DNA of 64,000 bases from Sulfurimonas sp. HSL3-7. GTDB lineage: Bacteria; Campylobacterota; Campylobacteria; Campylobacterales; Sulfurimonadaceae. The notes below the pieces were generated by a model, which saw nothing but the letters and a program-made list of their open reading frames with translations, did no database searches and was not told the DNA's origin. The position numbers and the translations under genes were made by a program. Below are positions 56,627 through 63,336 of this stretch, piece by piece. Each line of letters starts with the position of its first letter. The stretch's first letter is position 1. The DNA lies in the NCBI RefSeq assembly GCF_039645985.1, contig NZ_CP147919.1, positions 1,178,001 to 1,242,000 on the forward strand, in the 5' to 3' direction.

Positions 56627-56659
56627 ATGTTATATATTTGCAAGGCGACAAACACTTTT

Positions 56660-57820
56660 ATGAAGATCTGTACACTTATTTTTACTTTATTTATGGCATC
56701 CATGGCTTTGGCAGCCGAGATAGAGGCCGGAGCGCAAAAACTTAATGCCTATCTTCCGCTCATCAAAGATAAAAATATCGCTCTGGTCGTTAACCACGCC
56801 TCCGTCGTCAAGGACGAACACCTTGTGGACCTGCTGTCGGAAAACAATATCAGCATCAAGATGATCTTCGCACCCGAGCACGGGTTTCGTGGTGCAGCAG
56901 ATGCAGGCGAACACCTCAAGAACGGGGTGGACGTCAAAAGCGGCCTGCCTATCGTTTCGCTCTACGGCAGCCATAACAAACCGACGTCCGATGACCTCAA
57001 AGGCATCGACACGCTTCTTTTTGATATTCAGGATGTGGGGGTCCGCTTTTACACCTACCTCTCGACGCTGCACTATGTGATGGAGGCCGCCGCCGAAAAC
57101 AATCTTTCCGTCATTGTGCTGGACAGGCCCAATCCCAACGCTTACCGTATCGACGGGCCTGTTCTTAAAAAAGGGTACCGCTCTTTTGTCGGACTTCACC
57201 CGGTGCCTGTCCTATACGGCATGACGATCGGTGAGTATGCACAGATGATCAACGGCGAAGGGTGGCTGAAGGGCGGCATCAAAGCGAAACTGACGGTCAT
57301 ACCTTTGCACAACTACCGCCACAGTGACTTTTATCATCTGCCAATCAAACCTTCACCCAATCTGCCCAATGACCTCTCTATCGCACTGTACCCCTCATTG
57401 GCCTTTTTTGAAGGGTCCGTCTTTTCGGCAGGGCGCGGCACGCCAAAGCAGTTCCAGCTCTACGGGGCTCCTGACTACGCAAAGCGTGACTTCTCTTTCG
57501 TCCCTGAACCGAGAGAGGGGGCAAAGTACCCCAAACATCAGGGAAAGGTTTGCTACGGGGCAGATCTGAGCGGCACATCACTCGACGCCGCACGCGCATC
57601 TAAAAAGATCGAACTCTCCTATCTGTTCGATGCCTACCGCAACTACCCCGACAAAGAGCGGTTCTTTTTAAAGAATAACTTCTTCGACCGACTTGCCGGA
57701 AGCGATGCACTGCGAAAGCAGATCATCGCCGGCAAAAGCGAAAAAACGATCCGTGCGGGCTGGGAAGAGGATTTGAAACGGTTTAGAGCGGTACGTGGAA
57801 AGTATCTTCTTTATCCGTGA
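56660..57820 (+). CDS. namZ: Exo-beta-N-acetylmuramidase NamZ (DUF1343 family)
   Basis: A 386-residue secreted protein with a signal peptide (MKICTLIFTLFMASMALAAE, cut near residue 19). It has the DUF1343 motifs IALVVNHASVVKDEHLVDLL, FAPEHGFRGAADAGEH, PIVSLYGSHNKPT, LLFDIQDVGVRFYTYLSTL, VLDRPNPN and SVFSAGRGTPKQFQLYGAPD. NamZ in Bacillus cleaves MurNAc from the non-reducing end of peptidoglycan fragments. The start is Met at 56660, downstream of the -10. It heads the cell-wall salvage set with the symporter, AnmK, AmgK and MurU. Confidence 0.9.
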   Translation: MKICTLIFTLFMASMALAAEIEAGAQKLNAYLPLIKDKNIALVVNHASVVKDEHLVDLLSENNISIKMIFAPEHGFRGAADAGEHLKNGVDVKSGLPIVSLYGSHNKPTSDDLKGIDTLLFDIQDVGVRFYTYLSTLHYVMEAAAENNLSVIVLDRPNPNAYRIDGPVLKKGYRSFVGLHPVPVLYGMTIGEYAQMINGEGWLKGGIKAKLTVIPLHNYRHSDFYHLPIKPSPNLPNDLSIALYPSLAFFEGSVFSAGRGTPKQFQLYGAPDYAKRDFSFVPEPREGAKYPKHQGKVCYGADLSGTSLDAARASKKIELSYLFDAYRNYPDKERFFLKNNFFDRLAGSDALRKQIIAGKSEKTIRAGWEEDLKRFRAVRGKYLLYP

Positions 57821-57941
57821 GCTCTTTTTCGTGCAGATCAAAATAACAGCTCCGGCCGGAAGTCCGGCACAGCTCCTGCTACAGTGCACCTATTAAGTAT
57901 GTTGCGCTAAAATAAACAACTTTAAATCCTCAGGGAGAGTG

Positions 57942-59477
57942 ATGAACTCAAGCTTTGCCGCCATCGACTGGATCATTTTCGCTTCGTACTTTATCGTACT
58001 GATCGTCAGTTCGGTTCTATTGAGCCGGACCAGGATAGAGAACTCGCGGGACTACTTCGTAGGCGGCAACAGCATGCCGATGTGGGCCGTGGCGATTTCG
58101 GTGCTGGCGACGACCCAGTCGGCGGCGACCTTCCTGGGCGGGCCGGAGTACGCTTTTCGCAACGATCTGACCTTTTTGGGCTTCTACCTCTCAGCCTTCT
58201 TTGCCGTCATTTTTGTCGCCAGGGTGCTGATTCCCCGTTTTTATGCGATCAAAGCGGTAACGGTCTATGAGCTCCTGGAGACCCGTTACGGCTCCTCGGC
58301 CAAGAAAAATGCGGGAATGATGTTCCTGATCGGGCGGCTTTTTGCCAGCGGGGCAAGGCTTTACATCGGTGCCCTGGCCATTTCGATGATTTTGTTTATG
58401 GACATCGCCGCCTACCATGTCGCACTCTCCATACTCATTCTGGTCATTGGGGCCTTGGCCTATACCTATTTCGGCGGGGTCAAGTCGATCATCTACAGTG
58501 ATGTTATCCAGGCTTTAACCTACATCTCCGCCGCACTGGTGGTGCTCTTTTATCTCTACTACTCCCTGAACAGCGACTTTTCGACCGTGCTCTACACTTT
58601 GGCGGCCGATGACAAACTGCGGCTTCTGGATTTCAAACTCGACTTCTTATCGACAGGCAGTTTCAATGTCTGGGGGCTGATGAGCGGGTGGCTGCTGCTC
58701 AACATCGCGGCGTACGGGATGGACCAGGATATGACGCAGCGGGTGCTCTCATGCAGGGATAAAAAAGAGGGCGAGCGGGCCATCATCATCTCGGTACTGA
58801 TGACCATTCCGGTCGTTCTCCTCTTTATGCTGATCGGGCTGCTGCTCTATCTCTATTATGAACACCCCGAACTCTCCGGTTTTGCCAATGGCGTAGACCA
58901 GCAGTTCGAGGGGCAGAAGATCACGATCCTGATGTACTACATCTTGAACGAGATGCCCGAAGGGGTGCGCGGTTTTGTCACGGTCGGCGCCATCGCCGCG
59001 GCGCTTTCGAGTACCAATTCGGTTCTGGGCGCCATGTCGTCCGTCGCCATAGAGGACCTCTACAAGCCGTGGAAGCTGAAACAAGGCAAGGTCAGCGAGT
59101 TCCATTTTGTCAAAGCGGCGAGAGCCGGGGTCCTACTTTTCGCGCTGCTGCTCTCGATCATGGCGATGATAAGCTATTTCTGGCAGCGCTATACGGACCT
59201 GCCGCTGTTGAATTTTGCACTCGGCGTAATGGCTTTTGCCTATTCCGGCCTGTTGGGGGTCTACTTCTCGGCCATTTTTACATCGCGCGGCAGTTCAAAA
59301 AGCGTACTTTTCGCACTGATCGGCGGTTTTATGACGGTGCTGTTTATGCAGCCCTATATTCTTGGGATGATCACCGATTTTAAAGTGGGGTTTGCCTGGC
59401 AGATCGTCATAGGAACGCTTGTCTCTTTTGCCATCATGCAGTCAAGTTCAGGAGCTGGAGGAGGTGAGAATGTCTGA
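57942..59477 (+). CDS. Sodium:solute symporter (SSS), candidate MurNAc importer
   Basis: A 511-residue membrane protein with about 13 spans of the LeuT-fold SSS family: RDYFVGGNSMPMWAVAISVLATTQSAATFLGGPEYAF, then VTVYELLETRYGSS, GGVKSIIYSDVIQ, MDQDMTQRVLSC and AAALSSTNSVLGAMSSVAIEDLY, which is the sodium-site region. The ATG at 57942 is preferred to GTG 57939, because GGAG is then 4 nt upstream. Its place between namZ and anmK, with an 8-bp overlap with anmK, makes MurNAc or anhydro-MurNAc the best substrate guess. This remains inference; other sugars are possible. Confidence 0.9.
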   Translation: MNSSFAAIDWIIFASYFIVLIVSSVLLSRTRIENSRDYFVGGNSMPMWAVAISVLATTQSAATFLGGPEYAFRNDLTFLGFYLSAFFAVIFVARVLIPRFYAIKAVTVYELLETRYGSSAKKNAGMMFLIGRLFASGARLYIGALAISMILFMDIAAYHVALSILILVIGALAYTYFGGVKSIIYSDVIQALTYISAALVVLFYLYYSLNSDFSTVLYTLAADDKLRLLDFKLDFLSTGSFNVWGLMSGWLLLNIAAYGMDQDMTQRVLSCRDKKEGERAIIISVLMTIPVVLLFMLIGLLLYLYYEHPELSGFANGVDQQFEGQKITILMYYILNEMPEGVRGFVTVGAIAAALSSTNSVLGAMSSVAIEDLYKPWKLKQGKVSEFHFVKAARAGVLLFALLLSIMAMISYFWQRYTDLPLLNFALGVMAFAYSGLLGVYFSAIFTSRGSSKSVLFALIGGFMTVLFMQPYILGMITDFKVGFAWQIVIGTLVSFAIMQSSSGAGGGENV

Positions 59478-60561
59478 GTTATATATCGGCCTGATGTCGG
59501 GCACGAGCATGGACGGCGTGGACGTCGCGCTTTGCGAGGTTGACACGAGCCATTGCCGATTGGTAGCCTCCCTGGAGTATCCGTTTTCGAAAGCGTTAAA
59601 AGAAGCGGTACTGCAGATGATCGGCAGCAGTACCACTCTTCAAACGGTCGGGGAGATGAATCATCGCCTGGGGCTGCTCTTTGGCGAAGCGGTCAATGCC
59701 CTGCTGGCAAAGGAAAAGATCGAAGCGGCACGTATCAGAGCCATCGGCTTGCACGGGCAGACGCTTTGGCACAATCCGCGGGGGGAACACCCTTTCTCGA
59801 TGCAGCTGGGCGATGCCAGTATGGTCGCAGCACAGACAAACATCGACGTGGTGGGCGACTTTAGAAGCAAAGATATCGCCCTTGGTGGCGAAGGGGCGCC
59901 GTTCGCGCCGGCGTTCCATCAGTTTCTGTTCCATCATATGGCCAAGTCGATCGGTGTGCTGAACATCGGCGGCATGGCGAACCTCTCGGTCCTGCAGGAG
60001 CCGCTGATCGGTTTCGATACGGGCCCGGGCAACGTTCTGATGGATCTGTGGGTGCAAAAACAGTGCAACCTCCCTTATGACAACGATGGGCAGTGGGCTC
60101 AAAAAGGAAAGAGCGATCAAGCGCTGCTGGACGACCTGAATAATGAAGCGTACTTTGCAGCGCAGGCGCCGAAAAGTACGGGTCGGGAGCTGTTTAACCT
60201 GACGTGGCTGGCTGGCCACCTGCAAAAGCATCTGAAGATTACAGCCGAAGATGTACAGGCGACCCTGCTGGAATTGACGGTCCTGTCGGTTGTCAACGAA
60301 GTCAGGCGATACAAGATAGAACATCTGCTGGTCTGCGGCGGCGGGGTTAAGAACAGCTTTTTAATGCACCGCCTCGCCGAGGAACTTGACAATATCAGCG
60401 TGACCGCGACCGATGCCTACGGGGTGAGCAGCGAACAGATGGAAGCGATGCTCTTCGCCTGGCTGGCCTATAAACGCATTCACAGGGAGGCGGTGGAACT
60501 CAAAGCGGTGACCGGGGCAAAAACAAACGGTATTTTAGGAGGTGTTTATGCAAAAGATTAA
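59470..60561 (+). CDS. anmK: Anhydro-N-acetylmuramic acid kinase
   Basis: A 363-residue kinase with GLMSGTSMDGVDVALCEV at the start, GLHGQTLWHNP, DFRSKDIALGGEGAPFAPAFH, LNIGGMANLSVL, FDTGPGNVLMD and LLVCGGGVKNSFLM, all diagnostic of AnmK. It opens 1,6-anhydro-MurNAc and phosphorylates it to MurNAc-6-phosphate. The ATG at 59470 has GAGGTGAG upstream and overlaps the symporter stop; the longer frame from 59419 is an overlap artefact. Confidence 0.96.
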   Translation: MSELYIGLMSGTSMDGVDVALCEVDTSHCRLVASLEYPFSKALKEAVLQMIGSSTTLQTVGEMNHRLGLLFGEAVNALLAKEKIEAARIRAIGLHGQTLWHNPRGEHPFSMQLGDASMVAAQTNIDVVGDFRSKDIALGGEGAPFAPAFHQFLFHHMAKSIGVLNIGGMANLSVLQEPLIGFDTGPGNVLMDLWVQKQCNLPYDNDGQWAQKGKSDQALLDDLNNEAYFAAQAPKSTGRELFNLTWLAGHLQKHLKITAEDVQATLLELTVLSVVNEVRRYKIEHLLVCGGGVKNSFLMHRLAEELDNISVTATDAYGVSSEQMEAMLFAWLAYKRIHREAVELKAVTGAKTNGILGGVYAKD

Positions 60562-61492
60562 AGCGTGGCTGGAGAGAACAAACTACCGCCATTTTGATAT
60601 CGAGGTCGCCTCGGCCGATGCGAGTTTTCGCCGCTATTTTCGTCTCAGCGAAGCGGGCGAGAGCTATATTCTGATGGATGCCTCGCTGGAAAAAGCGTCG
60701 CTCTCTCCGTTTGTCGATATCACCAAACGCCTCTTGGATGTCGAGGTCCGCGCACCGAAGATCCTGGCACAGAACCTTGAAGAGGGCTTTCTGGTTCTGG
60801 ATGATTTCGGCAGTACCAACTACCTCGATGTCCTCAACGATCAAAACTTCAAGATACTCTACACCAAAGCGATGGAAGAGATACTCAAGATGCAGAAGGG
60901 AGATACGACAGGGTTACCGCTCTACGACAAAGCTTTTCTGCACTTCGAGATGGACCTGATGAAAACATGGTTTCTGGAGCAGTATGTCAAGCTGCCGCTG
61001 AACCGCGAAGACGAAGAGACCATTGAAAAGGCGCTTGACGCCATCAGCAAGGTGGTGCTGAGTCAGCCTCACGGTGTCTTTGTCCACCGTGACTACCATT
61101 CGCGCAACATTATGCTCACCCCTGAAGACGAGATCGGGGTGATCGATTACCAGGATGCGATGAACGGTGCCATCACCTATGACCTGGTCTCGCTGCTCAA
61201 AGACCTCTACATCGAGTATCCGCCCGAAGAGGTGGAGGCTCTGGCCCTGACATTCAGAGACATGCTGGGTCTCGATGCGGACGATACGACCTTTTTAAAG
61301 TGGTTCGACTTTATGGGACTGCAGCGCCATATCAAGGTGCTGGGTATCTTTGCGCGTCTCTATCTTCGTGACGGCAAAGAGGGTTACCTCAAGGATCTGC
61401 CGCTGACCCTCAAATACACGCTTGAAACGGCGCGAAAGTACAAAGAGACGCAGGCATTGGCCAGACTGCTTGAACGGGTCGTCCTGCCATGA
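60548..61492 (+). CDS. amgK: N-acetylmuramate/N-acetylglucosamine anomeric kinase AmgK-like
   Basis: A 314-residue phosphotransferase of the aminoglycoside-kinase type. It has FRRYFRLSEAGESYILMDAS near the start, then the catalytic loop FVHRDYHSRNIMLTPEDEIGVIDYQDAMNGAITYDL (HxD and the metal DxD). In Pseudomonas AmgK phosphorylates MurNAc at the anomeric position for MurU. The start follows AGGAGG. It overlaps anmK by 14 bp, and its TGA overlaps the ATG of a mini-ORF in the tandem repeat. Family and context both support AmgK. Confidence 0.92.
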   Translation: MQKIKAWLERTNYRHFDIEVASADASFRRYFRLSEAGESYILMDASLEKASLSPFVDITKRLLDVEVRAPKILAQNLEEGFLVLDDFGSTNYLDVLNDQNFKILYTKAMEEILKMQKGDTTGLPLYDKAFLHFEMDLMKTWFLEQYVKLPLNREDEETIEKALDAISKVVLSQPHGVFVHRDYHSRNIMLTPEDEIGVIDYQDAMNGAITYDLVSLLKDLYIEYPPEEVEALALTFRDMLGLDADDTTFLKWFDFMGLQRHIKVLGIFARLYLRDGKEGYLKDLPLTLKYTLETARKYKETQALARLLERVVLP

Positions 61493-61672
61493 AAGAAGGT
61501 ACTGCTTTCATCTCACCGACAGGTGTAGCTTTAGTGAGAGGAATTGGTGACGGGCATTGCCTGGCATCAAGGAGATGATAATGAAAGAAGGTACTCTTTA
61601 CATCTCACCGACAGGTGTAGCTTTAGTGAGAGGAATTGGTGACAGGCATTGCCCGGCATCAAGGAGATCATG
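61489..61672 (+). repeat. 92-bp tandem duplication between amgK and murU, with two mini-ORFs
   Basis: Two adjacent 92-bp units (61489-61580 and 61581-61672) differ at 7 positions. Each starts with ATGAAAGAAGGTACT and contains a purine-rich ribosome site (AAGGAGAT) at its end. Unit 1 encodes a 29-residue frame (stop TGA 61576-61578). Unit 2 encodes a 30-residue frame (stop TGA 61671-61673, overlapping the murU ATGATG). Both contain TCTCAC...GTGAGA and CACC-GACA-GGTG pairings that exclude each other. Unit 2 supplies the ribosome site of murU. Confidence 0.9.
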
Positions 61673-62338
61673 ATGAAAAAAGCGATGATATTGGCCGCCG
61701 GACTGGGCAACCGCATGCGCCCTTTGACCAACCACAGGCCAAAACCCCTGCTCGAGGTGGCGGGCAAACCGCTCATCGTCTACCACATCGAAAAGCTTGT
61801 TGCGGCCGGGTTCGAGGAGGTCATCATCAACATCGCCCATCTGGGCTTCATGATACCCGAAACGCTCGGTAACGGCTCCAGATGGGGCGTCAAGATCACC
61901 TACTCCGACGAGCAGGAGGAGGGGGCGTTGGAGAGCGCCGGCGGCATTGTCAAAGCACTGCCTCTGCTTGGAGATGAACCTTTTCTTGTCGTCAACGGCG
62001 ATGTCTGGTGTGATTATCCATTTGACAGCAGCTTCGATCTCAAAGACGATCTGGCACATCTTATACTGGTCCAAAACCCTGATCATAACCAAAAGGGCGA
62101 TTTCGCATTAAAAGAAGGGCGTGTCAGCAACAGTGGGGTGTCGCTCCATACCTTCTCGGGTATCGGCTACTACAGCCCCCGACTCTTTGACGATCTCCCT
62201 TACGGCAAGTGCCCTTTGGCGCCCTTGTTACGCAAGGCAATAGCAGATGAAAAGGTCAGCGGCGAACTTTATGGGGGAGAATGGCGTGACGTCGGTACGC
62301 CTGAGCGTTTGGCCGAGATCAATGCAACGTTTCGATAG
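61673..62338 (+). CDS. murU: N-acetylmuramate alpha-1-phosphate uridylyltransferase MurU
   Basis: A 221-residue nucleotidyltransferase beginning MKKAMILAAGLGNRMRPLTNHRPKPLLEVAGKPLI, the nucleotide-binding signature. EEGALESAGGIVKALPLL and LVVNGDVWCDYPF follow, and GEWRDVGTPERLAEI closes the chain. It turns MurNAc-1-phosphate and UTP into UDP-MurNAc, bypassing the fosfomycin-sensitive MurA route. The start at 61673 (or 61670) follows AAGGAGAT of the second repeat unit. Confidence 0.93.
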   Translation: MKKAMILAAGLGNRMRPLTNHRPKPLLEVAGKPLIVYHIEKLVAAGFEEVIINIAHLGFMIPETLGNGSRWGVKITYSDEQEEGALESAGGIVKALPLLGDEPFLVVNGDVWCDYPFDSSFDLKDDLAHLILVQNPDHNQKGDFALKEGRVSNSGVSLHTFSGIGYYSPRLFDDLPYGKCPLAPLLRKAIADEKVSGELYGGEWRDVGTPERLAEINATFR

Positions 62339-62550: not shown

Positions 62551-63336
62551 ATGGCAACATTCCCTCTCGAAAAGATCAGGCTTTTGCGCAAAAAACTCTC
62601 TACCCATCCCGTCTATGCGGCTGTCTCGAACATTGACGACCTGACACTCTTTATGCAGCACCACGTCTATTCGGTCTGGGACTTTATGTCCCTTCTCAAA
62701 TATCTTCAGAACGAATTTGCCCCGACCGGGTCACCGTGGCTTCCGCACGGTGACGCTCGGGTCAGACGCTTTATCAACGACATTGTGCTGGAAGAGGAGT
62801 CCGACGAGGGACTGCCGCTGGCGGACGGAACCCCGACTTATGCGAGCCATTTTGAACTTTATGTCGCGGCGATGGAAGAGGTACGCAACGGCAGCAGCAG
62901 CAAGATAGAGGCTTTTGTCGGCGAGGTCGCATCGGGCTCGCTGCAGCGTGCGATGGATAATGTTGTTATTCCCGAACCGTCCCGTGTTTTTATGGGTACG
63001 ACCTTTGACTTCATCGACAGCGGCAAGCCCCATGTCGTTGCGGCGGCTTTCGCTTTGGGGAGAGAGCATATTATTCCGGAGATGTTCCGTGCCCTGCTTG
63101 CGACGATGAACATCACGAAAGAGCAGGCTGAGGTCTTCCACTACTATCTCGAACGCCATATCCACCTCGATTCCGACTTCCACGGGCCGATGTCCCTTCG
63201 AATGTTAGAACTGCTGTGCGGTGACGATGAAGAGAAGATCGCCGAGGCGGAAGCGGCTGCCCTCACTGCCATTGAAGCACGGATCAGCTTCTGGGACGGT
63301 GTATTAAAGGCGATCACGGATTCCCGTAGCTCCTGA
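62551..63336 (+). CDS. DUF3050 (heme-oxygenase-like fold) protein
   Basis: A 261-residue all-helical protein with the DUF3050 landmarks: HPVYAAVSNIDDLTLFMQHHVYSVWDFMSLLKYLQ, then NDIVLEEESDEG, TFDFIDSGKPHVVAAAFALGREHIIPEMF and YLERHIHLDSDFHGPMSLRML. The conserved His and Glu residues on helices suggest a metal-dependent oxygenase-like fold. No function has been proven. It has its own TACAAT box at 62515 and is followed by a convergent gene. Confidence 0.88.
   Translation: MATFPLEKIRLLRKKLSTHPVYAAVSNIDDLTLFMQHHVYSVWDFMSLLKYLQNEFAPTGSPWLPHGDARVRRFINDIVLEEESDEGLPLADGTPTYASHFELYVAAMEEVRNGSSSKIEAFVGEVASGSLQRAMDNVVIPEPSRVFMGTTFDFIDSGKPHVVAAAFALGREHIIPEMFRALLATMNITKEQAEVFHYYLERHIHLDSDFHGPMSLRMLELLCGDDEEKIAEAEAAALTAIEARISFWDGVLKAITDSRSS

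Follow-up and report, generated by a model that had tools for sequence, protein, structure and literature searches.

The present analysis deals with a gene cluster for the salvage of N-acetylmuramic acid (MurNAc) in Sulfurimonas sp. HSL3-7, located in a stretch of 64,000 nucleotides (hereafter the window; contig NZ_CP147919.1, positions 1,178,001 to 1,242,000) of a genome of 2.87 Mb that consists of a single contig. Five genes are found there as intact open reading frames (ORFs) on one strand, in the order NamZ, sodium symporter of the SSF family, AnmK, AmgK and MurU:

56660..57820, + strand: NamZ gene, intact ORF; a further in-frame ATG lies upstream at 56627
57942..59477, + strand: symporter (SSF) gene, intact ORF; GTG alternative start at 57939
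59470..60561, + strand: AnmK gene, intact ORF
60548..61492, + strand: AmgK gene, intact ORF
61673..62338, + strand: MurU gene, intact ORF

These identities and their order had been put forward in a previous reading of the letters alone (the sequence-only reading), and they are borne out by the ORFs and by Pfam, NCBIfam and PDB relatives, with AmgK scoring under its cut-off. The first product is predicted to be an exported NamZ-type exo-beta-N-acetylmuramidase. It matches NamZ_N (E 2e-79) and NamZ_C (2e-31) over its full length, both above the gathering score, is close to PDB 4jja along the whole protein (E 4.5e-111) and carries the motif PEHGFRG; its hydrophobic N-terminus reads as a signal peptide, MKICTLIFTLFMASMALA-AE, as judged from the sequence and a hydrophobicity measure, with no dedicated predictor. 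The product of 59470..60561 is identified by its matches as AnmK, the anhydro-N-acetylmuramic acid (anhMurNAc) kinase (PF03702, 464 bits, E 3.5e-139; NF007139, 475.5 bits versus a cut-off of 367), with PDB relatives 3cqy, an AnmK (E 6e-90), and 3qbw. That of 60548..61492 is an APH-fold kinase whose motifs HRDYHSRN and IDYQD align with PDB 3csv, and is putatively an AmgK-type anomeric kinase for MurNAc and N-acetylglucosamine (GlcNAc). Finally, the product of 61673..62338 is assigned as MurU, the MurNAc-alpha-1-phosphate uridylyltransferase, with 302.8 bits to NF045761 versus a curated cut-off of 250 and an E-value of 2.4e-60 to the MurU of PDB 8hhd.

The genes are tightly spaced: the symporter and AnmK genes overlap by 8 nt, the AnmK and AmgK genes by 14 nt, and the two intergenic distances are 118 nt (NamZ to symporter) and 180 nt (AmgK to MurU). 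All terminator-like sites of a consensus scan fell within coding sequence and none in the gaps. This spacing and the lack of such sites in the gaps make it likely that the five genes are co-transcribed as one operon, as had been suggested before. The Rfam search of the window gave no match, and the folding of the NamZ-symporter gap was not clearly more stable than that of shuffled sequences (z +0.3).

The symporter matches the Pfam SSF family (E 9e-29), and its nearest solved relative is the sialic-acid symporter SiaT (PDB 5nv9), whose cargo is an acidic N-acetylated sugar. The start ATG at 57942 was preferred over the GTG because relatives begin with MNS. Among 81 symporter sequences, the residues aligned with the Na2 site of SiaT (S357 and S358) are invariant, as are D188 and S361 at the Na3 site, where one position holds Asn; a coupling to Na+ is thus supported by the alignment. 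Two of the three carboxylate ligands of SiaT, Ser60 and Thr63, are kept in all 81 as S61 and T64. The ligand residues are therefore compatible with an acidic sugar, without proving it, and we propose the symporter as an importer of MurNAc and/or anhMurNAc, a substrate deduced from residues and gene context.

The conservation of the cluster was evaluated in two sets. In 200 genomes of the order, MurU exceeds its cut-off in 16, belonging to two families; around the other 15 MurU genes AnmK, AmgK and MurU stand together in most, and the symporter is nearby in 12, two of these being truncated where the stretch ends. The recurrence of symporter, AnmK, AmgK and MurU across two families places this gene order far beyond chance. 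For the second set, named genomes were scanned with the symporter alignment and 80 loci were kept (Campylobacterota by title, one titled only 'bacterium'); almost all belong to Sulfurovum, Sulfurimonas and metagenome assemblies of related Campylobacterota. In this set, linkage of the symporter to AnmK is seen in 56 loci, to an amidase in 48, to AmgK in 46 and to MurU in 38, and less often to NagZ (13), NamZ (5) or an MltB-type transglycosylase (4). Counting the window, at least one peptidoglycan-salvage gene lies beside the symporter in 68 of the 77 loci with enough sequence, so that the neighbourhood is indeed conserved.

The usual upstream partner of the symporter is an exported Amidase_2 protein and/or NagZ. 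The amidase gene normally overlaps that of the symporter (median distance -1 nt, with 34 of 41 pairs lying within 20 nt), and a fusion of NagZ and amidase into one protein occurs in several genomes of the Sulfurimonas type. Strongly hydrophobic N-termini were read in most NagZ, NagZ-amidase, amidase and MltB ORFs, but not in AnmK or AmgK; the measure is crude, since its threshold is also reached in 47% of cases by MurU, which served as cytoplasmic control and whose first strand is hydrophobic, and the signal-like sequences of the exported enzymes were also read by eye. With amidase/NagZ as conserved partner and AnmK as core partner, the imported substrate is as likely to be anhMurNAc as MurNAc. 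In nine loci, including L111, the symporter is preceded by a divergently oriented cluster that codes for porin-like outer-membrane proteins.

Within the module, NamZ is specific to the lineage; the partner conserved upstream is the exported amidase/NagZ. It was found in only 3 of the 200 genomes, and its linkage to the symporter is seen in two separated branches, namely the window's own clade, with NamZ in 5 of 6 rows (none was found in the sixth, L088, where little upstream sequence is available), and one Sulfurovum locus, L133. This linkage arose at least twice. In genome G141, a NamZ gene stands beside a GH20 beta-hexosaminidase gene (L019:6882-9816), apart from the symporter operon.

As for other wall-recycling genes of the host genome, there is a single GH3 protein, NagZ-like and with a hydrophobic, signal-like N-terminus, which answers the search for NagZ that had been suggested, and a single Amidase_2 protein, also with a signal-like N-terminus. 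MurQ was not found in the genome, where just two weak SIS-domain matches appeared (28 and 20.7 bits versus a cut-off of 302). The AmpG model matched neither this genome nor any genome with MurU above cut-off; 15 of 200 other genomes gave weaker matches, none over the cut-off. Furthermore, the Amidase_2 gene overlaps a gene for a DUF819 membrane protein (L083:3341-6440, about 523840-526939 of contig C1 of the same genome), and this gene overlaps a third one, which codes for an L-Ala-D/L-Glu epimerase-like protein of the enolase superfamily fused to a GIY-YIG domain. Judged by gene order, this trio may be a salvage operon for murein peptides, the counterpart of the MurNAc salvage scheme, and the same order suggests the DUF819 protein as a candidate importer of murein peptides.

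Taken as a whole, we consider it probable that the operon is a peptidoglycan salvage module of the type 'cut outside, import bare sugar', leading from MurNAc and anhMurNAc to UDP-MurNAc. The identities of the genes, their order and conservation and the signal-like N-termini are read directly from the sequences; the direction of the flux through the operon would be as follows. In the periplasm, exported NamZ would attack wall fragments at their non-reducing ends and free MurNAc, and muropeptides and anhydro-muropeptides would lose their GlcNAc and peptide to the exported NagZ and Amidase_2, which are encoded elsewhere in the genome. The MurNAc and/or anhMurNAc so formed would then enter together with Na+ through the symporter. 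Free MurNAc would be converted by AmgK to MurNAc-1-phosphate and by MurU to UDP-MurNAc, with no need for MupP. The presence of AnmK in the cluster implies that anhMurNAc also arrives in the cell; AnmK would turn it into MurNAc-6-phosphate (MurNAc-6P), which requires a dephosphorylation before AmgK and MurU can act. Hence the 'complete' MurNAc salvage of the sequence-only reading stands for the free-MurNAc branch and falls short for the AnmK product, for which neither a phosphatase nor MurQ was found. The proposed rebuilding of UDP-MurNAc without MurA has to be qualified likewise. The salvage role holds, but the genome has two EPSP-synthase-family genes, consistent with MurA plus AroA; in that case salvage would supplement rather than replace de novo synthesis, and it probably adds to the MurA route. 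A tolerance to fosfomycin would be expected by analogy.

Several observations weigh against this proposal. The Arg135 of SiaT is not conserved, its column being occupied by Ala136; arginines R133 (79 of 81) and R140 (81 of 81) flank that column, one turn either side. In 9 of the 77 informative loci a close SSF relative has no peptidoglycan gene nearby, and one metagenome-assembled genome contains both an unlinked copy (L135) and a linked one (L161), so that the substrate cannot be told from sequence class alone. The unlinked relatives (L111, L115, L116, L135, L150 and others) are about 66-68% identical. The best NCBIfam model for the putative AmgK is AmgK itself, NF045759, with 254 bits under a cut-off of 550. 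The search for other importers covered AmpG; Yej, Opp and the PTS transporter MurP were not searched for. Lastly, no credible MupP appeared among the six HAD_2 proteins of the genome scanned against NCBIfam, the best reaching 100.9 bits (L005) versus a cut-off of 359.

The absence of MupP from the window, already noticed by the sequence-only reading, was confirmed. The PF13419 (HAD_2) search of the genome gave eight places, two of which were read as sequence only, namely L009 and the large protein L007, whose HAD part is N-terminal. L005 is Gph-like, a phosphoglycolate phosphatase above its own cut-off. L004 (95 bits) has relatives in 187 of the 200 genomes, many without MurU over cut-off, and L006 has orthologues in MurU-less genomes and is missing from several MurU genomes; neither of the two tracks MurU across the order. 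All three were rejected as MupP. Cof-type HAD-IIB proteins fall outside the HAD_2 search. In relatives, a phosphatase of this type is encoded close to MurU, on the other strand, in 22 of 38 MurU loci (L156:9816-10652, L142:14452-15282, L162:6614-7432 and 19 more), and in 22 of the 29 that extend at least 1.5 kb downstream. It stays near MurU in several rearranged genomes, and its scores of 130.5 and 129.2 bits are just under the Cof-subfamily cut-off of 137. It was not found in the window, and the host genome outside the window was not searched for it. This protein is a reasonable candidate for the MurNAc-6P phosphatase of the relatives. A broader scheme, which we hold as possible rather than probable, is that bacteria of the Sulfurovum/Sulfurimonas type recycle independently of AmpG: exported NagZ and amidase would produce periplasmic anhMurNAc, the symporter would be the first anhMurNAc importer, feeding AnmK, AmgK and MurU, and the Cof-type HAD would replace MupP.

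Several known systems share parts of this organization. We take the ybbC gene of Tannerella to be NamZ. In Tannerella forsythia, the murT operon is contiguous with ybbC (PMC5388701), and MurT is a MurNAc importer (PMC7670621) placed in the sodium symporter superfamily (PMC5790795). The NamZ-MurT-MurK-MurQ locus is thus alike in that a NamZ-type gene adjoins the gene of an importer of that superfamily, there within one transcription unit (PMC5388701, PMC7670621, PMC5790795), so the symporter, put forward earlier as a new candidate MurNAc importer, has a precedent. The resemblance to MurT is one of described family and gene context. In Tannerella, however, the kinase MurK and the etherase MurQ follow, AmpG is present and AnmK is not, whereas here AnmK, AmgK and MurU follow, MurQ is absent and AmpG gave no match. 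The AnmK-MupP-AmgK-MurU pathway of Pseudomonas shares the chemistry of AnmK, AmgK and MurU towards UDP-MurNAc (PMC5371407, PMC5371409), but there AmpG imports anhydro-muropeptides that are cut in the cytoplasm, while here both NagZ and the amidase appear to be exported, and no recognisable MupP was found. The murQRP-amiE-nagZ-ybbC(namZ) cluster of Bacillus subtilis has extracellular NagZ, an amidase (AmiE) and a NamZ-type gene, and the bare amino sugar is imported (PMC5061867); it differs in PTS import and MurQ catabolism, in place of a symporter and UDP-MurNAc synthesis. Agrobacterium, with YejBEF-YepA, gives another Gram-negative answer to the absence of AmpG (PMC9790009), but by an ABC importer of intact muropeptides, with NagZ and AmpD in the cytoplasm.

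The Tannerella precedent bears on two other explanations. The symporter could be specific for MurNAc, as a MurT-like carrier of the NamZ product, and AnmK could serve a separate stream of anhMurNAc entering by another importer. NamZ is in fact the adjacent exported enzyme here, and MurT, with its operon next to the ybbC/NamZ gene, is an importer of MurNAc; however, NamZ is rare in the order, the common partners of the symporter are amidase/NagZ and AnmK, and AmpG gave no match, so that we find this explanation unlikely. The cluster could also scavenge foreign peptidoglycan as a nutrient rather than recycle the own wall, as the apparent export of NamZ would allow and as Tannerella, with a similar NamZ-importer pair, does in living on MurNAc from other bacteria (PMC7670621). 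Against this, MurQ was not found in the genome, so MurNAc would not enter GlcNAc-6-phosphate catabolism by that route, and AmgK and MurU lead to a wall precursor; we consider such a role distinctly unlikely. That the symporter has some other periplasmic product as its cargo, such as GlcNAc, a small muropeptide or an unrelated acid, and shares only its regulation with the salvage enzymes, agrees with the breadth of the SSF family and with the unlinked relatives near other genes, but is very improbable given the overlap with exported amidase genes and the linkage to both muramic-acid kinases in two families.

The gap between the AmgK and MurU genes is filled by a repeat:

61489..61672, + strand: two head-to-tail copies of a 92-nt unit, at the amgK-murU junction

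The copies are 92% alike, and each holds a mini-ORF of 29-30 codons (MKEGT..ISPTGVALVRGIGD) ending in the ribosome-binding sequence AAGGAGAT. In the close relatives L087, L089 and L090, amgK and murU overlap by 4 nt with no insert, and the units sit exactly at that point. No other copy was found in the host genome, nor an exact match of the unit core in viral contigs; in L157 (about 600-695), a related stretch (39 nt, 90%) precedes a small, unrelated gene. The folding of the units was not clearly more stable than that of shuffled sequences (z -1.3 and +0.6). The pair is probably a recent local insertion followed by duplication. Downstream of murU, at 212 nt, lies a DUF3050 gene (62551-63336), outside the conserved cluster in the relatives examined.

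A literature search of partial coverage found no description of this cluster or of recycling in Sulfurimonas. AmpG, together with NagZ and AmpD acting in the cytoplasm, has been the main subject of work on peptidoglycan recycling in Gram-negative bacteria. In the present case the wall fragments appear to be cut in the periplasm, and a sodium symporter sits in one probable operon with the kinases for its presumed cargo. What is new is the combination, Pseudomonas-like inside the cell, Bacillus subtilis-like outside and with a MurT-like importer. It provides a directly testable candidate importer for MurNAc/anhMurNAc and points to the Cof-type HAD as a candidate for the MurNAc-6P phosphatase that is missing, and the module could explain why AmpG matches are lacking in these bacteria.

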